Shown one piece after another: positions 51,041-63,984 of a DNA stretch of 64,000 bases (position 1 is its first letter; every line of letters begins with the position of its first letter). The DNA comes from an uncultured Nitrospira sp. (lineage in GTDB: Bacteria; Nitrospirota; Nitrospiria; Nitrospirales; Nitrospiraceae), in NCBI GenBank assembly GCA_902500995.1, contig CABVSR010000003.1, positions 124,001-188,000 of the forward strand. The letters run 5' to 3'. A model generated the notes under the pieces. It was not told where the DNA came from and did no database searches. It worked only from the letters and a program-made list of their open reading frames with translations. The translations under genes were made by a program, and so were the position numbers.

Positions 51041-52495
51041 TCACTGCGCGCTTCTGGATTTGAGAGCCTCGAGGCGTGGTTTGTCGAGTGTGACGTACAG
51101 AGACTTTTCCTGCGTCACGGTCACGGCGCCTGGTGCTTGGCCTTTCGCTTTCTTGACCCACTTGCGGCGGGTATAGATCACATCGCCCTTCCCGCTTTTT
51201 TTCAAGTCGCTGTAGAGGAGCGCCAATGTGGCCGCGTCCCGTATGGTTTCGGGAGGCGGGTCCGTCCCCTTATCCAATCGCACCACGACATGTGAGCCGG
51301 GCGTGCCGCGCGCATGGAGCCACAAGTCTTCGCTTTTCGCGAGCCCGAAGGTGAGGTCATCGTTCTCGCGAGCATTCCGGCCGACCAGGATAAGATGGCC
51401 GTCCGATGAGACAAAGCGCCGGAATGGTCCTCGAGATTGCTCCTTGGCCTCGCGCGTTCGTCGTCCGGCCGGCGTCGCTGGTCCCCTGCGCCGTCCATCC
51501 GCAGGAGGTGCCTGCCAGGTACCCTGTTGGATCTTGTCCAGTTCCTCCTGGGTCTGCTGAATCTCTGTTTCGACCCTGGCCAGGCGCGGCGAGATCTCCT
51601 TCTGCGCCGACACGAATTTACGATACTTGGCAAAGTAGGCATCCATGTTGGCCTGCGGCCCTTTCGTGGGATCGAGCGGTATCGTGAGTTCAGGCAGTTG
51701 TTCATCGTAATAGTCCACGACCGCCACGGAACTCTGCCCCTTCTTGAGTAAGCCGAGATTCGCCTTCAATAATTCGCCATACCTTGCGTACAGTTCGTAC
51801 CGCGCGGCCTGTTCGAGGTCGTGCCGGAGCGCGGCGGCGCGGCGCAGGAGCTTCTTGAGCAGTTTGCGCAAGCCCGATTCGCGGGCCCGGACCTGAGCCT
51901 GGTGTGACAATTCTGCTTCGCGCTCCCGATAGCAGGCTTCGAGTCCGGCTGAAAGGGGGAAGGGATGATGTGCGGCCGGCTGGTGGGTTTCCGGCTCGGG
52001 AACGCGCACGTCATGCGACGAGGCTCGAACGGGTGCAGCCGGCGGGGGCTGATACAGCAGGCCCAGCCGGTCTTTATTCCGGCGGACTGTGGCGATCGCC
52101 CGGCCTTCCGCATCGAGAAACAGGAGATCCGCATTGCGGCTGAACAGTTCTGCGATCAGCGAGACCGGCCCGTCCCGGCTGGTCAGATCAAGGCGCACGA
52201 TCCGGTCGCCGGGCATGTGGCGAATGGCATCGATGCGCGCCCCCTGGATTCGAGCGCGGAGGAGTTGGCAGAAAGAGGGCGGAGACGGCGGATTGGGCAG
52301 CTGCTGATCCACGAGATGTAGACGCGCCGTTTCGTCCCGGAGGGAGCAGAGGAGTCGGCGCGTATGCCCGGGCACGCGAATCTCGAAGATGAGCTGGTCG
52401 GGGAGCGGTTGAGAAATCTTTTGAATCCAGCCATCGGCGAGGGCTGCCGCCAATTCGTGGACAACGGAACCAATTTCTGTCGCCGTTAGAGCCAT
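51041..52495 (-). CDS. rqcH: NFACT-family protein RqcH (ribosome quality control, Ala-tailing)
   Basis: Cytoplasmic protein of 484 residues that binds stalled 50S subunits and recruits tRNA-Ala to add C-terminal alanine tails. NFACT-N holds PGDRIVRL with Asp97 and Arg98, the pair needed for tRNA recruitment in characterised RqcH. A coiled-coil middle (about 185-300) follows, with IPLDPTKGPQANMDAYFAKY. NFACT-R at the C-terminus has LWLHARGTPGSHVVVRL. It is about 80 residues shorter than Bacillus RqcH. It may also have been called FbpA-like fibronectin-binding, but that name reflects an older annotation. Its stop is 41 bases before the activator gene. Confidence 0.9.
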   Translation of the reverse strand: MALTATEIGSVVHELAAALADGWIQKISQPLPDQLIFEIRVPGHTRRLLCSLRDETARLHLVDQQLPNPPSPPSFCQLLRARIQGARIDAIRHMPGDRIVRLDLTSRDGPVSLIAELFSRNADLLFLDAEGRAIATVRRNKDRLGLLYQPPPAAPVRASSHDVRVPEPETHQPAAHHPFPLSAGLEACYREREAELSHQAQVRARESGLRKLLKKLLRRAAALRHDLEQAARYELYARYGELLKANLGLLKKGQSSVAVVDYYDEQLPELTIPLDPTKGPQANMDAYFAKYRKFVSAQKEISPRLARVETEIQQTQEELDKIQQGTWQAPPADGRRRGPATPAGRRTREAKEQSRGPFRRFVSSDGHLILVGRNARENDDLTFGLAKSEDLWLHARGTPGSHVVVRLDKGTDPPPETIRDAATLALLYSDLKKSGKGDVIYTRRKWVKKAKGQAPGAVTVTQEKSLYVTLDKPRLEALKSRSAQ

Positions 52496-52823: not shown

Positions 52824-53051
52824 ATGACATGCACGCGCTGTGAAGGCCTGATGGTGGTGGATGATTTGGTGGACCTTCAAGAAAGTTATCATCCCATGCG
52901 ATTACGTGGTCACCGGTGCCTCAGTTGCGGGAATGTGGTGGATACCCTGATCCAACGCCACCGGATGGTGCAGCATTCCCATCTCCAACCGGTCCGTGCC
53001 TCCGTTCCGGAAAAGCCGTTCCTCTTCGAGTTGATCAAACGCACGGCGTAA
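52824..53051 (+). CDS. Small zinc-ribbon protein
   Basis: Protein of 75 residues with two CxxC knuckles, Cys3/Cys6 and Cys32/Cys35 (TCTRCEG and RCLSCG), a typical four-Cys zinc ribbon. The loop between is acidic and hydrophobic (VVDDLVDLQE). AGGGAGG sits at ideal distance from the ATG at 52824. A large perfect palindrome follows the stop. A regulatory or nucleic-acid-binding role is plausible; nothing more can be said. Confidence 0.8.
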   Translation: MTCTRCEGLMVVDDLVDLQESYHPMRLRGHRCLSCGNVVDTLIQRHRMVQHSHLQPVRASVPEKPFLFELIKRTA

Positions 53052-53068
53052 TTCGCGCCCACGCCGCT

Positions 53069-53098
53069 CCCCGCGAAACCGGCGCCGGTTTCGCGGGG
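53069..53098. terminator. Perfect 30-bp palindrome after the zinc-ribbon gene
   Basis: Fifteen-base arms (CCCCGCGAAACCGGC and its exact complement) with no loop bases, 17 bases after the stop codon. There is no T-run, so it is not a classical terminator. It could stop transcripts from either side or protect the 3' end. Confidence 0.5.
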
Positions 53099-53298
53099 AT
53101 GTTCCTCTGCTCCGACGTGGCGCTGGCCATTCTCCGCAGAACCTGCGCTTCCTGTCTCCGCTGCTCGTTCCGCGATCACACCATCCGTCTACGATGTGGA
53201 CCCATTTCGGCGGCCGTTTCTCATGGCCTGCTTGTCAGCCTTCAAGCAGTCGCGTACAGTGCGCGCGCACATCTCTTCACTCAGAAAGGCTGGGAGCG

Positions 53299-54846
53299 AT
53301 GACGGTTCTCGATGCGCGGATCCTTGAGCGGTTGATGGAGGAATTCCAGCAATCCATGCGTGGCCTGTTGAGGGACGTGTGCCGTGATTTCACCCGGAAC
53401 TATGCGGATGCGGCCCGTGCCTTCGAGTTACCGATCGACTGGTTCCTGTCACTAGGGCAGTCCTTCACGCAAGCCGAATTGAGCAATTGGAAAGTGGTGG
53501 GGTGGATCGAGTCCCTGAACGATTTGCTGTATTTCGTCGATCTCCTGGCTCAAGTGCGGCAGGAGCGGTCTCGGCAGGATATTGCCGAACAGTTGCGCGC
53601 CGAGTTTCGAGAAAAGTTTTACGAGCACGGCTACGCTGATGACATCTTTCCTTCGGGCAAACCGGAACCGAGATTGCTCCTCGGACGGCTCACGGCGTTG
53701 TGCCGGCGACTGGCTCGGGAAATCATCCAGGAGTCCGTCTGTCTTGCGCCGCGGCTGGCCTGCGCGTGGGTGGCGCAACGACGACGTGAGGCTTGGCTCG
53801 TACCTTGTCATCTGACGGCTGATGTTGAACGGGTGGAATTGCCCTGGGGCTGCGCAATCGGACCGACCGGAGTGTTTTATGAGGCGAGCGGCAGGGTGCG
53901 CACCGCGCTGCGAGGCGCGGAGGGCCAAGGGATCTTCAAGGTGACGGCTTCGGGGATCATGCTTGTAGTCGGCGATCGCACCTACCCCCTGGTTGATTGG
54001 GGCAAGCAGGAGAATTGGCATTGGCGGCGTCTGGATCCGGTGCTGCTTCGAACAAGTCGATATGGGGCTCTGACCCTCGGGCCGACACTCGTTTACGGAA
54101 AGGATAAGACGCCGGTCGGCGTGCGGCCGACGACGGCGGAGGTGGCCCTGCGCATGCGGCGGGCGTTATCGGCCATTGCCACCGCCTGGCCGGCAGGGGA
54201 CCGGTTGCTGGCGCTGCTGACTTCGCGCATCGTGCCGTTGAAAGCCACCGGGGTGGTGAGCTTCAGTTATAGGCACCGGCCGGGGCTATCCGCCATCAAT
54301 TGTTTTGACCGCGATCAACTGGACCTGATCGACGATTTGATCCACGAAAATAGTCATCACCACCTCAATCTGCTTTTGCGCAAGGAGGTGATGTATCGGC
54401 ACGATCATAATCAAGAGGTGTTCTATTCGCCCTGGAGGCGCACGCTGCGGCCGTTGCGCGGAATTCTGCATGCGACATTCACGTTCACCATGGGCGCCAT
54501 GCTGTTCGAGCGGCTCGTGGAAATTGGAAGCGGCAAGGCAGGGACGAGCAGCTGGAAGAAGGCCGGTCTCAACCGGCGGGATCTGGTCCGCGCCCGTTAC
54601 CGTTGCCTCGAAGAAATTGAATCGGTCCGATATTCGCTGAAGGATCTGGAGTATGCAGGCCGCCGTCTGAAGTGGCTGACAAGCGGAGGCAAGGAGCTGG
54701 TCAAGCAATTACACGCAGCCCTCGCCCGTCTGGAGCGGAGGACGCAGGGATATGAACAGGAAGTCAGCCGGTCGCCATTCGGTCCCGCCTTACTCCGGCA
54801 CCGGGCCGAACTGGCCCAGGCGCGCGAGACCTTGAGCCTGATGTGA
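53299..54846 (+). CDS. HExxH-type putative peptide beta-hydroxylase
   Basis: Protein of 515 residues that I assign to the HEXXH peptide-modification family (the group annotated as aKG-HExxH-type peptide beta-hydroxylases). The signature is LIHENSHHHLNLLL with His349-Glu350 and His353, followed by FYSPWRRTLRPLRGILHATFTF, where His391 is a possible third metal ligand. The N-terminal half (1-330) is family-variable. Characterised members hydroxylate Asp/Asn-type residues in ribosomal peptides using 2-oxoglutarate. No radical SAM gene, peptide exporter or obvious precursor is nearby. An ordinary zinc metallopeptidase is the alternative, but the SPWR-RPL-LH block argues against it. Confidence 0.75.
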   Translation: MTVLDARILERLMEEFQQSMRGLLRDVCRDFTRNYADAARAFELPIDWFLSLGQSFTQAELSNWKVVGWIESLNDLLYFVDLLAQVRQERSRQDIAEQLRAEFREKFYEHGYADDIFPSGKPEPRLLLGRLTALCRRLAREIIQESVCLAPRLACAWVAQRRREAWLVPCHLTADVERVELPWGCAIGPTGVFYEASGRVRTALRGAEGQGIFKVTASGIMLVVGDRTYPLVDWGKQENWHWRRLDPVLLRTSRYGALTLGPTLVYGKDKTPVGVRPTTAEVALRMRRALSAIATAWPAGDRLLALLTSRIVPLKATGVVSFSYRHRPGLSAINCFDRDQLDLIDDLIHENSHHHLNLLLRKEVMYRHDHNQEVFYSPWRRTLRPLRGILHATFTFTMGAMLFERLVEIGSGKAGTSSWKKAGLNRRDLVRARYRCLEEIESVRYSLKDLEYAGRRLKWLTSGGKELVKQLHAALARLERRTQGYEQEVSRSPFGPALLRHRAELAQARETLSLM

Positions 54847-54983: not shown

Positions 54984-55514
54984 CTATGTGGCGGGCCTGA
55001 CACGAACCAGATACGAGCCGATTTCCGGGTCGCCCGTTTGAGGACTGGCAGTCGGCCCCTCGCTTTCCGCATGCGAGCCGGTCGTATTCGACAGGCTGAG
55101 GGATAACCGGAGGGTTCCGAGAATCCTGGTTGGGACGTCCGGGGGCGGAGCCGGAGGTTTCATGATGCCGCGGCTAGTGATGACGTTGGTCTCTCGATGA
55201 AACACTTTTCCGTCCATGAGGTTTTGCAGCGTCTGAATCGCCTGATGATTCCTGGCATCATTGGGTGACGGGGTGAGGGCTGGTTCCGTCAAGCCTTTGG
55301 TGATGCCGGCATGCCCGCACAATTCGCCGATTTGCCCGCCGTCGGCATACTTGAAGCCGTGCGCCGTCGTGAACTGACCGAATCCGGCCATGATCTCCCG
55401 ATACGATCGTCCGGCAGTTGCCGTGAGGTTCAGCCACTGTAAGTTGGTGTCGGTATCCAAGGTGAGAAGCCGATCCTCGCTGCCCGCAACGAGATCCTGT
55501 TGAATCAGTGCCAT
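54984..55514 (-). CDS. Exported-protein-type DLVAG/LTLDTDT domain protein without signal or sorting tail
   Basis: Protein of 176 residues. DRLLTLDTDTNLQWLNLTAT, AGFGQFTTAHGFKYADGGQIGELCGHAGI are characteristic of a domain that normally occurs in secreted PEP-CTERM proteins (residues 8-65 here). Neither a signal peptide nor a C-terminal sorting motif is present, and the C-terminal half is Pro/Ser-rich. GGAGGG precedes the ATG. It may be a cytoplasmic or truncated derivative. Tandem palindromes at 55662-55697 lie upstream. It converges on the HExxH gene. Confidence 0.68.
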   Translation of the reverse strand: MALIQQDLVAGSEDRLLTLDTDTNLQWLNLTATAGRSYREIMAGFGQFTTAHGFKYADGGQIGELCGHAGITKGLTEPALTPSPNDARNHQAIQTLQNLMDGKVFHRETNVITSRGIMKPPAPPPDVPTRILGTLRLSLSLSNTTGSHAESEGPTASPQTGDPEIGSYLVRVRPAT

Positions 55515-55717: not shown

Positions 55718-55849
55718 CTAGAGGCTGCTCAAAAAGGTTATCCAGCAAGGCCGCAAGGAGTGGGGAGACTGAGGCGTACCCGAGAGGGTACGTCGCAGGG
55801 AGCCGCACGACTGAGAACGCGGCTGGGGACCTTTTTCAGCAGCCTCTAG
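55718..55849. repeat. MITE/REP-like hairpin element, copy 2
   Basis: A 132-bp element with 21-base terminal inverted repeats that match at 20 positions (left CTAGAGGCTGCTCAAAAAGG). It is related, in opposite orientation, to the copy at 23864-23984: both share CAAAAAGG, TCCAGCAAGGCCGCA and GAGAACGC blocks. Its right end supplies the stop codon region of the gene at 55846. Confidence 0.75.
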
Positions 55850-56967
55850 GGTTCGACGGTGACGTCGACGTAGGCTGGCACACTATCTGCGCCCTTCTTG
55901 TCGGTCACGCGTAACTTGAAACGAAAGGTGCGGGTTTCCGAGACATAAGGAGCCGTAAACGACGGCTCTGCCATGTTGACGTCCAGCATGGCCACTTTGC
56001 TCCCCCGCACCTGGCCCCAGGCATAAAACAGCGCCTCCCCTTCAGGATCGCGACTCTGCAGTCCGCTCAAGCGCACCTTCGTGCCGGCTTTCACCGTTTT
56101 GGCCGCGCCGGCATGGGCCACCGGCGGTTCATTCGGCTCGGGATTGACCTCCACCCGCACATCCAGCGTGGCTTGCTTGCCGCGGTTTGTCACCGTGAGT
56201 GAGGTCTTGCCGATCCCGACGATCTGGAGCAACCCCTCCGGCAAGACTTTGAGGATCTGATCGTTTCCGGACGTATACACGGTCCCCGCACTGGGTGAGG
56301 ACAGGGGGCGACTGATGCCGTCTGCGAATTCGCCCACCACCGGGAGTTCAAAGATCTTGCCGAGCGAATCCACGTGGCCGTAGGCGGAGGATTGTCCCGT
56401 CCGGCCCAGTTGCAGCGGTTTTTCCGTTTCGAAGTCGATGGCAAGAAGTTCAGCCGCCGGCTGAACCGTGACGAAGACTTCATCGAACACGGTTTTGCGC
56501 CCGAGACGGCCTTGAGAAATGTCGGCAATAGCCAGCAGCCGCATGCGTCCGACGGCATCGGGAGGCACCGGCAAGGGGCCACCGTAGGGCGGCACGCGGT
56601 CCACGGTCGAGGTCAGCGCAGGCAGCGCGACGACCGGGGCTCCGGTGATGCTGTCCTTCTGCCAGTATTTGTCTGTCGACATGCTGCCCTGAGAGCCCTT
56701 CCCCGCGCGATCATCACCCTGCTCCACCAAAGATTCGGTCTGTTCGGGATACCAGTAGTAACGCACTTCGACGAGACCGGCTTCCCGGCTTGCCTCGACC
56801 TCGGCGGTGGTTGGCCGGCCGGATGTCAGCGTCGCACCGTTCGCGGGGGCGACGATGGTGAATGCCAGCCCCGGATCGGAAAGCGCGCCCAGCAGGCAAG
56901 CGCCCGCGAGTAAGTGGACACCGGCCTTCCAGCTCCTCCGGTGTGTCGTCAAGACTCTCTGTGCCAT
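55846..56967 (-). CDS. Exported protein with PKD/Ig-like C-terminal domain
   Basis: Predicted secreted protein of 373 residues. A signal peptide (about 12-36, ending LAFT) is followed by a domain with TIVAPANGATLTSGRPTTAEV (about 37-170), a middle Ig-like/BIG2-type part (about 195-275; LLQIVGIGKTSLTVTNRGKQ) and a PKD/REJ-like domain (about 285-373; GTKVRLSGLQSRDPEGEALFYAWGQ). Such domains mediate adhesion or surface display. The stop codon lies within the inverted repeat of the hairpin element, so the element's insertion may have set the C-terminus. It follows the APC transporter by 4 bases. Confidence 0.75.
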   Translation of the reverse strand: MAQRVLTTHRRSWKAGVHLLAGACLLGALSDPGLAFTIVAPANGATLTSGRPTTAEVEASREAGLVEVRYYWYPEQTESLVEQGDDRAGKGSQGSMSTDKYWQKDSITGAPVVALPALTSTVDRVPPYGGPLPVPPDAVGRMRLLAIADISQGRLGRKTVFDEVFVTVQPAAELLAIDFETEKPLQLGRTGQSSAYGHVDSLGKIFELPVVGEFADGISRPLSSPSAGTVYTSGNDQILKVLPEGLLQIVGIGKTSLTVTNRGKQATLDVRVEVNPEPNEPPVAHAGAAKTVKAGTKVRLSGLQSRDPEGEALFYAWGQVRGSKVAMLDVNMAEPSFTAPYVSETRTFRFKLRVTDKKGADSVPAYVDVTVEP

Positions 56968-59118: not shown

Positions 59119-62100
59119 ATGGATTGTCAGTGGTTCACTCGCGTCACATCGCGCGCCCTCAGCGTTATCGCTGGTGGCGCGCTTGTGTGCCTACCGCTAG
59201 CCGCGTCGGCTGAGAGTCAGCTGCACGCGGATCAGGCGGTGCCTCAACACACAGCAATGTCCCATCAACTCCCGTCGTGGGCGGAGAAGTTGAAGGGGCA
59301 GACGATCGTCGAAGATGCGATGGCTGGAAAGCCGGAGCGGTCCTTGATGGTTGAGCAGCAGCACCAGCGGGTCATGGAGCATTTGACCAATGATCCGCAG
59401 GCGCAGGCGGTCAATACGGGGATGTTCAACACCCAGACCATGATGCACCAATATGGGGCTGGCGGTCAGGACCTTCTCCTGATGTCTGACCCGCGAGTGG
59501 AGCCAGTGGCAATGACGAACGGGGGGAAGTGCCCCGCCACCGCGCCGGTACGGCAATACAATGTCTCGGCGATCAATGTCGAAATCACGCTCAACCAGTG
59601 GCTCGATTTTTATCCCGGCTACATGTACACGCTGGATGAAAATCTCGACAAGGTGCGGGCGGAAGAGACGAAGAATCGCGAAGCTCGTGACAAGGAGGGG
59701 TTTGACCCGGGTGCGGTGATTCCCGGTGTGCAAGCTCAGTGGATTCAGCCGTTGACGATTCGCGGCAATCAGGGCGATTGCGTCAAGATCAAGCTGACCA
59801 ACAAGTTGGAAGGCGGCGAAGACGTCAGCCTTCACATCCACGGTTCCAGCATGGTGGTAAGCGCTACCGGTGCCGCAGCCGCCACCACGAACTCCGACAG
59901 CATCGTTCAGAAGGACAAGAGCGGCGAGTTCGAGTGGTACATCCATCCGAGCACGCAGGAAGGCGTCCGGCAGTTCCACACCTTCGCCAATGATCGGGAA
60001 CTGACCGTGATGGGCCTCTTCGGGTCCTTCGTCGTCGAGCCGCGCGGATCCGAATACCTGGAGGCGCTGGGAAGCGGCGCTCCCACGCCCGCGGCGAGCG
60101 GCTGGCAAGTCATGATCAAGAATGGGACGGGGCCCGACTTCCGGGAATTCGTCCTGTATTACCATGAAGTCGGCGACGAGGCGTTCCGCCCCGTCAATAA
60201 GAAGGGCGACTTCCTGCCTCAACGCGATCCGCTGACCGACGCCTACCGCCCGGGTGGCCGCGCGATCAACTATCGCAGCGAGCCGTTCGGCATCAACAAC
60301 ATGCACGTGCAGCATGAATACTTCGGCTTCGAAGACGAGTCGATGGGGTATAGCTCGTACACCTTCGGCGACCCCTCGCCGACGATTCCTCGTTCCTATA
60401 TGGGTGATCCGGCGAAGTTCCGGCTGGTCCACGGCGGATCGGAAGTGTTCCACAGCCACCATCCGCATGGCGGCACGATCCGGTGGCCGCGCAGCCCGCG
60501 GGCCATCGACGACATGAATCTCTGGACGACCGCCGGAAACGGCCCGGTCAAGTACCCGGTGATCCGTGCCAAAACGGATCGCGTCGACGTCGAAGTCATC
60601 GGTCCGTCGGAAGCCCTGGACCTCGAGACGGAGTGCGGCTCCGGCTTGTGCCAGCAGCTCGCCGGCGATTTCCTCTTCCACTGTCACGTGGCGCACCATT
60701 ACGTGGCGGGTATGTGGGGATATTGGCGGGTGTACAACACCCTGCAGCAGGGCGACATGCGTAATGACGTCATGCCGGATTTGCTGGAGTTGCCGGATCG
60801 CCAAGGCCGCATCAAGGGGCCAATCACCTCGGATAAATTAGTCGGTCAGACGGTGGATTGGTTCGGCAAGTCCTTCAAGATTGTCGACAAGGGCAAGAGC
60901 GATTGGAAGTCCAACCCGGCCGTCGTCACCATCAAGGACTGGGTTGAGATGCAGCTCCCGACGATGGGCAAGCCCGGACACAAGAACGATGAAAAGGGCC
61001 AAACCGTTTCCTACGACGCCACGGTGCTGGATTGGGCCTGGGAAGGCACCCGAGCATTGAGCGAACCGGAAAGCACCATCGATAATCCGAAGTATCGGTC
61101 GTCCCATCCGGGCAAGCGGCATCCGATCACCTTCGAGCCGTTGACCGGAAAGGTGGCATGGCCTCACCTCACGCCGCATTTCGGGCGACGGGTCATGTTC
61201 TCTCCGAATCACGTGGGCGCGCCCTGGTTGGAGATGATCCGCCGTGACGCCAACGGTGAGGAGAGCGTCGATCAGGCGTTGCCGGGTGAGAACGGCAACT
61301 GGAGCTTGTGCCCGGAGAACGCCGGACGGAAGCACTACAATGTCCACTTCATCAAGCTGCCGATCACGATCGCCAAGAAGACGGGCAAAGAGCCGCCGGT
61401 GGTCGATCCGAACGGTTTGATCTATGTCTTGCATGAAGAGGAAGCCGACATCCGTAAGAACGACGATTTGAAGTATCCGCTGGTCGTTCGCGGCAACATC
61501 TACGATTGCGTGGATTGGACCTTGACCAGCGAGTGGGATGACGATGACTACACGAACTTCCAGTCATCGAAGATCAACACCCACTGGCACTTCCTGCAAT
61601 TCGACAACCAGGCGTCGGACGGCGTGATCACTGGCTTCTCATACGAACAGTCGGTGCGCCCGTTCACGATGCTGGAAAAGAAGAATGCCAAGGGGTTGCC
61701 GGTTCCCATGAACACGGTCGTGACCGCAGCCGCTAAAAAGGGCGCGAACACGATCACGGTGAAGAATGCGAAACAGTTCCATGTCGGGACGCTGCTTCTC
61801 GTGGGCGCCGACAATGTGAAGGGCAATGAAATCTCCCGCATCAAGGCCATCAGCGGCAATACCATCACGCTGGCCAAGGCGCTGAAGCACGATCATCCGG
61901 CCAATGACATCGTCACGGTTGAATTTGTGCGCCAGCGGTTCTGGGTTGATGCGGACGTGGGAACCGTGTTCTGGCACGACCACGCGTTCGGTGCGACCAC
62001 CTGGCCGCACGGCGGGTTCGGCACCTTTATCGCCGAGCCGGTCGGATCCACCTATCATGACCCGAAGACCGGGAAGTTGATTCGAAGCGGACCGATCGCG

Positions 62101-63984
62101 GACATTCACACGAATGAGCCGGTGGGACACGGCGTGAACAACAGTTTCCGTGAATTGATGGTGCAGGTGCACGATACCGTGCCGCACACCGTCAACGTCG
62201 TGACGGCGGGGAATCCTCCCGGGCAGCCGATTGAAGTGGCGCTCGAGGCGGGAAAAACCGTTTCCTTCATGATGCCCGAGAAGATCTATATGACGCCGAT
62301 GCCGTTCTTGAATGGTGGTACGCACACCACCGGCAGCGGACTGAACTTCCGGGCGGCGCCGATTGCGCAGCGATTGGCGACCAATCCTGATGCGTCACAG
62401 ATTTTCAGCAGCCAGGTGCACGGCGATCCGTACACGCCCACCTTGCGCGCCTATGTCGGTGACACGATGGTGTTCCGCCTGTTGCACACCCTTATGAACG
62501 AGTCCATGGTCTGGACCCTGTCCGGCCATTCGTTCTGGACCGAGCGGTATGCGGCGGATGCGAACCGGAAGAATTCGATCCATATCGGTATCGCAGAGCG
62601 GTACGACCTCGTCGTGCCGGAAGCGGGTGGGTCCCGGCATCAAGCCGGCGACTATATCCACTTCAACGGCCGGTCCTCGAAGTTTTCAGAGGGCGGCTGG
62701 GGCATTATCCGCGTCTTGGATAAGGAGCAGGCTGATTTGAAGAAGTTGCCCGCGGGCTTCTCGAATAAGGGGGAGATGCCGAAGCCTCTGCCGGTATGTC
62801 CCGCCGGTGCGCCTGTCAAGCAGTTCAACGTGGTGGCGATGGACTATGCCGGCATGAAGTTCAATGCCAAGGCACCGGAATCCATCGAAGTGGACTTTGA
62901 GCGGCGGATTCTCATGACCAATGCCGAGGCCAAGATTTACGCCTTGGAGGAGGACACCGCGAAAGTCGCCGCCGGTGCGCATCCGATGCCGTTGACGCTC
63001 CGTGTCAACAGCGGCGATTGCGTGAAAGTGCACTTGAAGAACAAGATGAAGGACAGCAAAGCTTCCTTCTCCGCGATCGGTCTGGCCTTTGATCCGAAGG
63101 ATTCCATGGGCGCGAACGTGGGGAATAATCCGGGAGACCAGACCGTGGCTCCGGGAGGCGAGCGTGACTACACGTACTACGCTGATCCGTTCAACGGTGA
63201 GACCACCTCGTTGGTGTGGGATTGGGGCAATGTGATGACCAATCCGCGCAACGGGTTGTTCGGTGCCGTCGTCGTCGGCCCCAAGGGTTCCAAGTACCGG
63301 GACCCGAAGACCGGCGCGGATCTGTCAAATAAGAATGCCTGGGCGGCCGATGTCATCATCGATCGCTCGATTCCGGGCAATGAAACGCGGGCGAATTATC
63401 GCGACGTGGCGTTGTTCTTCCAGGACGAAGACAACATCATCGGCACGAGCTTCATGCCCTATGTGCAGAACGTGGCGGGGTTGACCGGCGTCAATTACCG
63501 GTCGGAACCGTACAAGTTCCGTGAAGAGCAGGGTTGTTCGCTCGGCAAGGTGTTCCAACCTTGTAAGGCGGACAAGCCGGAAGATCCGGCCACCCCGCTG
63601 ATCGAGGCGCATGCCGGTGATCCAGTGCGCATCCACGTACTGGGTGTGAGCAACGAGCAAAACGGCATGTTCAGCGTGGAAAAGCACGAGTGGCCGATCG
63701 AGCCGTTCATGCGCGGCGCTGACTTGATCAGTGTCGTCGAATTCTCCGGCTCTGAGACGATCGATGCGTTCTTGCCCTCGGCGGGTGGAATGTATCGGAT
63801 GCCTGGCGACTACGTGTATAGCAACCAGCGGTTGCCGTACTCGCAGTCCGGACAGTGGGGCTATGTCCGGGTATTGCCGGCCGGCGATACCAGGTTGCTG
63901 CCATTGACCGGCGCCGGTGCCGGAACGAAGAGTGCCGAAGTGGAGCAGCCGGCTGCGCGCGTGATGCCTATCGCGTCGAAGTAA
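59119..63984 (+). CDS. Very large multicopper oxidase, MnxG-like
   Basis: Exported multicopper oxidase of 1621 residues. A signal peptide (about 1-31, ending ASAES) precedes at least six cupredoxin-like domains. Motifs in order: HIHG (239-242), HSHHPHGG (445-452), the type 1/type 3 motif HCHx3Hx4M with Cys522 and Met532, HWH (822-824) and HDH (953-955). Classical laccases have HxH, HxH, HxxHxH then HCH; here the last two come first, as in MnxG-type manganese oxidases, where NTHWHFLQFDNQASDG-like sequence also occurs. Thus metal oxidation is a fair guess; phenol or cuprous-ion oxidation are alternatives. Pre-final domains repeat PKGSKYRDPKTGADLSNK-like units. AAGGAGG precedes the ATG. Confidence 0.85.
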   Translation: MDCQWFTRVTSRALSVIAGGALVCLPLAASAESQLHADQAVPQHTAMSHQLPSWAEKLKGQTIVEDAMAGKPERSLMVEQQHQRVMEHLTNDPQAQAVNTGMFNTQTMMHQYGAGGQDLLLMSDPRVEPVAMTNGGKCPATAPVRQYNVSAINVEITLNQWLDFYPGYMYTLDENLDKVRAEETKNREARDKEGFDPGAVIPGVQAQWIQPLTIRGNQGDCVKIKLTNKLEGGEDVSLHIHGSSMVVSATGAAAATTNSDSIVQKDKSGEFEWYIHPSTQEGVRQFHTFANDRELTVMGLFGSFVVEPRGSEYLEALGSGAPTPAASGWQVMIKNGTGPDFREFVLYYHEVGDEAFRPVNKKGDFLPQRDPLTDAYRPGGRAINYRSEPFGINNMHVQHEYFGFEDESMGYSSYTFGDPSPTIPRSYMGDPAKFRLVHGGSEVFHSHHPHGGTIRWPRSPRAIDDMNLWTTAGNGPVKYPVIRAKTDRVDVEVIGPSEALDLETECGSGLCQQLAGDFLFHCHVAHHYVAGMWGYWRVYNTLQQGDMRNDVMPDLLELPDRQGRIKGPITSDKLVGQTVDWFGKSFKIVDKGKSDWKSNPAVVTIKDWVEMQLPTMGKPGHKNDEKGQTVSYDATVLDWAWEGTRALSEPESTIDNPKYRSSHPGKRHPITFEPLTGKVAWPHLTPHFGRRVMFSPNHVGAPWLEMIRRDANGEESVDQALPGENGNWSLCPENAGRKHYNVHFIKLPITIAKKTGKEPPVVDPNGLIYVLHEEEADIRKNDDLKYPLVVRGNIYDCVDWTLTSEWDDDDYTNFQSSKINTHWHFLQFDNQASDGVITGFSYEQSVRPFTMLEKKNAKGLPVPMNTVVTAAAKKGANTITVKNAKQFHVGTLLLVGADNVKGNEISRIKAISGNTITLAKALKHDHPANDIVTVEFVRQRFWVDADVGTVFWHDHAFGATTWPHGGFGTFIAEPVGSTYHDPKTGKLIRSGPIADIHTNEPVGHGVNNSFRELMVQVHDTVPHTVNVVTAGNPPGQPIEVALEAGKTVSFMMPEKIYMTPMPFLNGGTHTTGSGLNFRAAPIAQRLATNPDASQIFSSQVHGDPYTPTLRAYVGDTMVFRLLHTLMNESMVWTLSGHSFWTERYAADANRKNSIHIGIAERYDLVVPEAGGSRHQAGDYIHFNGRSSKFSEGGWGIIRVLDKEQADLKKLPAGFSNKGEMPKPLPVCPAGAPVKQFNVVAMDYAGMKFNAKAPESIEVDFERRILMTNAEAKIYALEEDTAKVAAGAHPMPLTLRVNSGDCVKVHLKNKMKDSKASFSAIGLAFDPKDSMGANVGNNPGDQTVAPGGERDYTYYADPFNGETTSLVWDWGNVMTNPRNGLFGAVVVGPKGSKYRDPKTGADLSNKNAWAADVIIDRSIPGNETRANYRDVALFFQDEDNIIGTSFMPYVQNVAGLTGVNYRSEPYKFREEQGCSLGKVFQPCKADKPEDPATPLIEAHAGDPVRIHVLGVSNEQNGMFSVEKHEWPIEPFMRGADLISVVEFSGSETIDAFLPSAGGMYRMPGDYVYSNQRLPYSQSGQWGYVRVLPAGDTRLLPLTGAGAGTKSAEVEQPAARVMPIASK

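Follow-up and report, generated by a model that had tools for sequence, protein, structure and literature searches.

A long-form aKG-HExxH-type putative hydroxylase encoded by a core gene of the Nitrospiraceae

Genes and Features of the Locus

The window analyzed here is a stretch of 64,000 nucleotides from contig CABVSR010000003.1 of an uncultured Nitrospira sp. (GCA_902500995.1), whose genome comprises 3.97 Mb in 56 contigs. The gene under study (Table 1) was correctly delimited in the first-pass annotation, and its start at ATG 53299, giving 515 aa, is supported by several orthologues that carry an in-frame stop one codon before the equivalent ATG. It is part of a conserved gene order consisting of NFACT (-), zinc ribbon (+), enzyme (+), PKD protein (-), amino-acid permease (-), and multicopper oxidase (+), which extends throughout the genus and a large part of the Nitrospiraceae. 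The zinc-ribbon and PKD neighbors had been described before and are present, but the 176-aa ORF beyond the enzyme gene had been overlooked. A GC-rich hairpin downstream of the zinc-ribbon gene could separate the transcripts of that gene and the enzyme.

Table 1. Coordinates of the features discussed in the text (window positions unless another locus is named).
Feature	Position	Strand	Basis or remark
NFACT/RqcH-family protein, divergent gene	51041..52495	-	Pfam NFACT_N and NFACT-R; synteny
Zinc-ribbon protein, 75 aa, two CxxC	52824..53051	+	Neighbor; no obligate partner
GC-rich hairpin, 14-bp stem, strong	53068..53099		Between zinc-ribbon and enzyme genes; z -3.2
Enzyme CDS, long form	53299..54846	+	515 aa; TIGR04267 putative peptide/protein hydroxylase
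N-terminal helical part, aa 1-160	53299..53778	+	AF2 model; conservation
Middle beta-rich region, aa 161-278	53779..54132	+	Fastest evolving
Catalytic region, aa 279-412	54133..54534	+	Profile match; conservation
HENSH metal-binding motif, residues 349-353 (H349, E350, H353)	54343..54357	+	Aligns with ChlH HEHRH
SPWR family motif, S377-R380	54427..54438	+	Aligns with ChlH and SjiH
RPLRGILHA, R384-A392	54448..54474	+	Alignment
176-aa ORF, no Pfam match	54984..55514	-	Conservation limited to part of the genus; between enzyme and PKD genes
Exported-type PKD-domain protein	55846..56967	-	Conserved syntenic neighbor
MNIO-like gene	L196:8913-10550; own genome G000:C23:16915-18423	-	PF05114 match

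Two further features of the window were recorded in passing. The exported multicopper oxidase-like protein (1621 aa; 59119-63984, + strand) shares 93-97% identity among members of the genus and exceeds 80% in several other Nitrospiraceae genera, so that it outconserves its neighbors, and Pfam models cover only small parts of it. An element of about 125 bp at 55720-55846, between two genes, has inverted ends (GGCTGCTCAAAAAGG ... CCTTTTTCAGCAGCC) and is REP- or MITE-like in appearance; the pair of ends occurs once in the window.

Family Membership and Fold

The enzyme matches the NCBIfam model TIGR04267 (aKG-HExxH-type peptide beta-hydroxylase) over residues 287-412 with 72.4 bits (E=4.4e-20) against a curated cut-off of 40 bits, and the block formed by HENSH and SPWR/RPL/LH, from which the first-pass annotation had recognized a peptide-hydroxylase type, is thus not a product of chance. 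A Pfam search of the enzyme at E up to 1, in which the HMMER filters drop very weak matches, returned nothing, peptidases included. Amongst solved structures, the sequence finds PDB chain 8s5f (ChlH; E=6e-9) and, weakly, the SjiH entry 22nu. The AlphaFold2 model of the enzyme, built from 56 sequences, has a mean pLDDT of 90.6, and its top two Foldseek matches are SjiH (22ob) and the HExxH domain of ChlH (8s5f), both with E of about 1e-10 to 1e-9, followed by an M61 aminopeptidase at E=0.07. Superposition with VIA-align gives Z 24.2 against 8s5f (3.5 A, 294 residues) and Z 21.3 against 22ob (376 residues), compared with Z of about 6 for zincin aminopeptidases, a value inside the background of helical matches; the nearest structures are therefore not those of zinc metallopeptidases. 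By profile and fold, the protein belongs to the aKG-HExxH superfamily.

The conservation of individual residues bears out the same assignment. The glutamate and both histidines of the HExxH motif (H349, E350, H353) are invariant in 56/56 aligned orthologues, as are S377-P378-W379-R380, R384, and P385, and H391 is kept in 55 of the 56. The exception, an orthologue from a Baikal MAG (L157:10001-11533), carries ILQG rather than ILHA, and SjiH likewise has Q for this H. The idea that H391 is a required third metal ligand was dropped on account of the Q at this position in SjiH and in that orthologue.

Conservation differs strongly along the protein. Mean identity to distant orthologues reaches 74% in the catalytic region and falls to 34% in the beta-rich middle region, with the C-terminal part (54%) and the N-terminal helices (48%) in between. 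In G032 and G034, a portion of the middle region is deleted. A structure search with the middle region alone gave weak matches, the best being SjiH at Z 4.1, with PTB-like domains at Z under 4. The middle region is a candidate substrate-recognition module, and substrate recognition is presumably served by the non-catalytic parts of the enzyme.

Distribution and Inheritance

Within the phylum Nitrospirota, in which the restriction to Nitrospiraceae was assessed, the gene was found in 116 of 120 Nitrospiraceae genomes that are each at least 90% complete, and in 111 of the 114 of best quality; the source genome carries one copy. In an even sample of 296 genomes from the phylum, only three from other families (G052, G305, and G318) contain a protein above the TIGR04267 cut-off. 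In a genome scan with close patterns, the titles of the best 80 of 117 relatives name Nitrospira, Nitrospiraceae, or Nitrospirae/Nitrospirota, bar one "uncultured Nitrosospira"; no relative was confirmed on viral contigs. One genome (G006) yielded neither the enzyme nor NFACT, an absence that looks more like an assembly gap than a loss. Two Nitrospiraceae genomes contain a second, divergent TIGR04267 protein in addition to the core copy (G242:C96:41912-42412 and G316:C9:88483-88851, in open frames of 448 and 488 aa). As a discriminating partner, nitrite oxidoreductase was tried and set aside; a TIGR03479-based search gave no distinction between genomes that have the enzyme and genomes that lack it.

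The gene is under purifying selection (dN/dS of 0.13-0.14 against close orthologues). Across 48 genomes, the distances between enzyme proteins track those of its neighbors (r=0.90 for NFACT, 0.87 for the PKD protein, and 0.79 for the APC permease), a pattern that vertical descent would produce. A patchy distribution is normal for genes of biosynthetic clusters. The enzyme gene is instead a core, single-copy, vertically inherited gene and no accessory cluster gene, so that the framing of the first-pass annotation, in terms of enzymes that modify ribosomal peptides, is supported as to the enzyme class but too narrow for the way the gene behaves.

Neighboring Genes and the Search for a Local Precursor

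NFACT is the most constant neighbor of the enzyme, being present in 70 of the 80 fetched loci, with several of the others cut by contig ends. It is not obligatory, as none was found in G034, a 98% complete genome that has the enzyme, and in G032 the two genes are on different contigs. The zinc ribbon lies between NFACT and the enzyme in 44 of those 70 loci and is missing from 26, where the start codons on either side lie just 161-322 bp apart and there is therefore hardly space for it. At least five partial paralogues of the zinc ribbon occur in its own genome, and one genome (G231) retains NFACT and the zinc ribbon without the enzyme. The proposal that a small neighboring protein serves as substrate therefore fares poorly, and the zinc ribbon is unlikely to be an obligate substrate.

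When every ORF of at least 25 aa from six source loci was compared with 35 divergent loci, no small gene except the zinc ribbon recurred by the enzyme, the remaining recurrent frames being the known genes and their antisense reads; the comparison covers the locus, and a distant fast-evolving or very short precursor would escape it. No conserved peptide-maturing partner (e.g., radical SAM or MNIO enzymes) adjoins the enzyme, whose neighbors are the genes of the conserved order. The apparent lack of a precursor and partner enzymes at the locus, first noticed in this one stretch of DNA, is thus real and holds across the whole of the Nitrospiraceae. An upstream DNA motif (ACTGTAC/GTACAGT) was rejected as a candidate, since no more than 23 of 71 upstream regions contain it, and its orientation varies among them.

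The short TIGR04267 proteins of other Nitrospirota families serve as a positive control. In G052, a protein of 307 aa is encoded downstream of YhhB (cyclophane-forming radical SAM maturase; 495 bits, cut-off 445), a YhhA-type precursor of 60 aa (49.9 bits, cut-off 36), and YhhC (2OG oxygenase; 245 bits, cut-off 150). The short protein of G318 adjoins YhhC, and the gene order in G305 was read as similar. Since the same approach reveals a RiPP cluster in G052, the missing partners in Nitrospiraceae are a real absence. A search for FxsB-family maturases, run at E up to 1e-15, was likewise positive in G052 and found none in ten Nitrospiraceae genomes. The short proteins resemble the window enzyme in the family model, the HExxH motif, and PW(R/Q)...RP...LH, but differ from it in their length of about 290-310 aa, their occurrence in few genomes, and their yhh-type context. 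As an observation in its own right, the G052 locus (L057:7497-10324) is a full cyclophane RiPP cluster made up of yhhA, yhhB, yhhC, and the aKG-HExxH gene, and the core region of its YhhA terminates in YNRTYNRHNR.

The same family has a second RiPP-type iron enzyme with the distribution of a core gene. Of the 120 Nitrospiraceae genomes, 119 encode an MNIO-like protein about 500 aa long; its gene lies beside the housekeeping genes dus and maf and is unlinked to the enzyme locus. MNIO and aKG-HExxH enzymes can co-occur in RiPP clusters (PMC13060819, PMC12636437).

Possible Function

Taken together, these data indicate that the enzyme is probably a cytosolic Fe(II)/2-oxoglutarate hydroxylase, core in the Nitrospiraceae, that acts on a conserved protein or peptide encoded in trans; its family, fold, conserved residues, core status, and lack of partners at the locus are established by the data above, and its cytosolic location, cofactor use, reaction, and substrate are inferred. 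In the proposed mechanism, H349 and H353 of the HENSH motif would coordinate the iron, and the 2-oxoglutarate pocket would be completed by the PWR/RP block together with the helix after it; a ferryl intermediate would then hydroxylate one carbon of a residue in the substrate polypeptide, most likely a beta-carbon. The long form would thereby have abandoned the RiPP-cluster lifestyle of its relatives in favor of a cellular target. Because the gene is a near-universal, single-copy, vertically inherited member of its family, aKG-HExxH chemistry is probably directed at a core cellular target here; the substrate is likely encoded elsewhere than at the enzyme locus, and a conserved cellular protein or peptide appears more likely in this role than a secondary metabolite. 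A more specific version, that a RiPP-type enzyme was recruited at the root of the Nitrospiraceae as a housekeeping protein hydroxylase, maybe in one pathway with the MNIO-like enzyme, is conceivable and is put forward tentatively.

Alternatively, the enzyme could still tailor a RiPP whose precursor and partners lie elsewhere in the genome, yielding a secondary metabolite or a peptide cofactor that is conserved in the Nitrospiraceae. Characterized aKG-HExxH enzymes do use RiPP precursors (PMC12636437, PMC13060819), and the long MNIO-like protein, of the other RiPP enzyme type, is also universal and at an unlinked locus. This explanation is nevertheless judged unlikely, given that no FxsB/YhhB-type maturase was found in ten family genomes, that universal, clock-like inheritance is unusual in secondary metabolism, and that the MNIO-like gene itself adjoins housekeeping genes. 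A search for NHLP leaders found no match in the sampled genomes and none in the controls either. That the substrate is instead a local neighbor, either the zinc-ribbon protein or a product of the NFACT/RqcH pathway of the divergent gene, would fit the constancy of NFACT and the intervening position of the zinc ribbon in 44 of 70 loci, but is quite improbable in view of the 26 loci without the zinc ribbon, its paralogues, the genome that keeps both neighbors without the enzyme, and the enzyme-bearing genomes in which NFACT is undetected (G034) or on a different contig (G032). A zinc metallopeptidase of the zincin superfamily, suggested by the HExxH motif and a weak fold likeness (Z about 6) to aminopeptidases of the M1 and M61 families, is still harder to credit, because the fold matches the aKG-dependent ChlH domain and SjiH far better than zincins and because the conservation pattern, with invariant PWR and RP motifs, is that of an oxygenase; the TIGR04267 match points the same way, with no Pfam peptidase match at E up to 1.

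If the tentative version of a recruited housekeeping hydroxylase, perhaps sharing a pathway with the MNIO-like enzyme, is true, it would amount to an unrecognized core post-translational modification of nitrite-oxidizing bacteria. Bacteria of the Nitrospira family are nitrite oxidizers, and the Nitrospiraceae are the main nitrite-oxidizing lineage; going by record names, the family genomes presumably include complete-ammonia-oxidizer lineages as well. Together with the universal MNIO-like protein, the enzyme hints at housekeeping branches of two RiPP enzyme classes within a single bacterial family.

Comparison with Known Systems

A literature search that covered few subscription journals found no paper describing the Nitrospira gene. 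Enzymes of the aKG-HExxH type are dioxygenases dependent on Fe(II) and 2-oxoglutarate, with iron bound via the HExxH motif (PMC13060819), and their known reactions include hydroxylation of Asp and His by ChlH (PMC12636437), of Pro by PesO (PMC13060819), and of Gln, with oxidative cleavage of the backbone, by PflC/PosC (PMC12636437). Without its leader, PflC also shows hydrolytic activity (PMC12636437), so that hydrolysis by the window enzyme stays conceivable. The members described in the papers cited here belong to RiPP clusters and have RiPP precursors as substrates (PMC12636437, PMC13060819, PMC12707348), which favors a peptide over a protein as substrate.

ChlH (8s5f), a fused radical SAM/aKG-HExxH protein from Chlorogloeopsis, has the fold, the HExxH motif, and PWR...RP...G.LHA in common with the window enzyme. 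It differs in its fusion to a radical SAM maturase and its cyclophane RiPP substrate (PMC12636437), whereas the window enzyme is a stand-alone protein with an extra beta-rich middle region and no RiPP cluster. SjiH (22ob/22nu) shares the fold over 376 residues, HExxH, and the PWRK.LRP block, although identity is only 14% and Q replaces H391. PflC/PosC, BpmH/BipH, and PesO, likened by annotation, fall in the same named family (IPR026337/TIGR04267), but their genes, unlike that of the window enzyme, are clustered with precursors and tailoring enzymes (PMC12636437, PMC12707348, PMC13060819). The window enzyme is thus a member of the aKG-HExxH superfamily by profile and fold, and is unlike the RiPP-cluster members in its genomic behavior.
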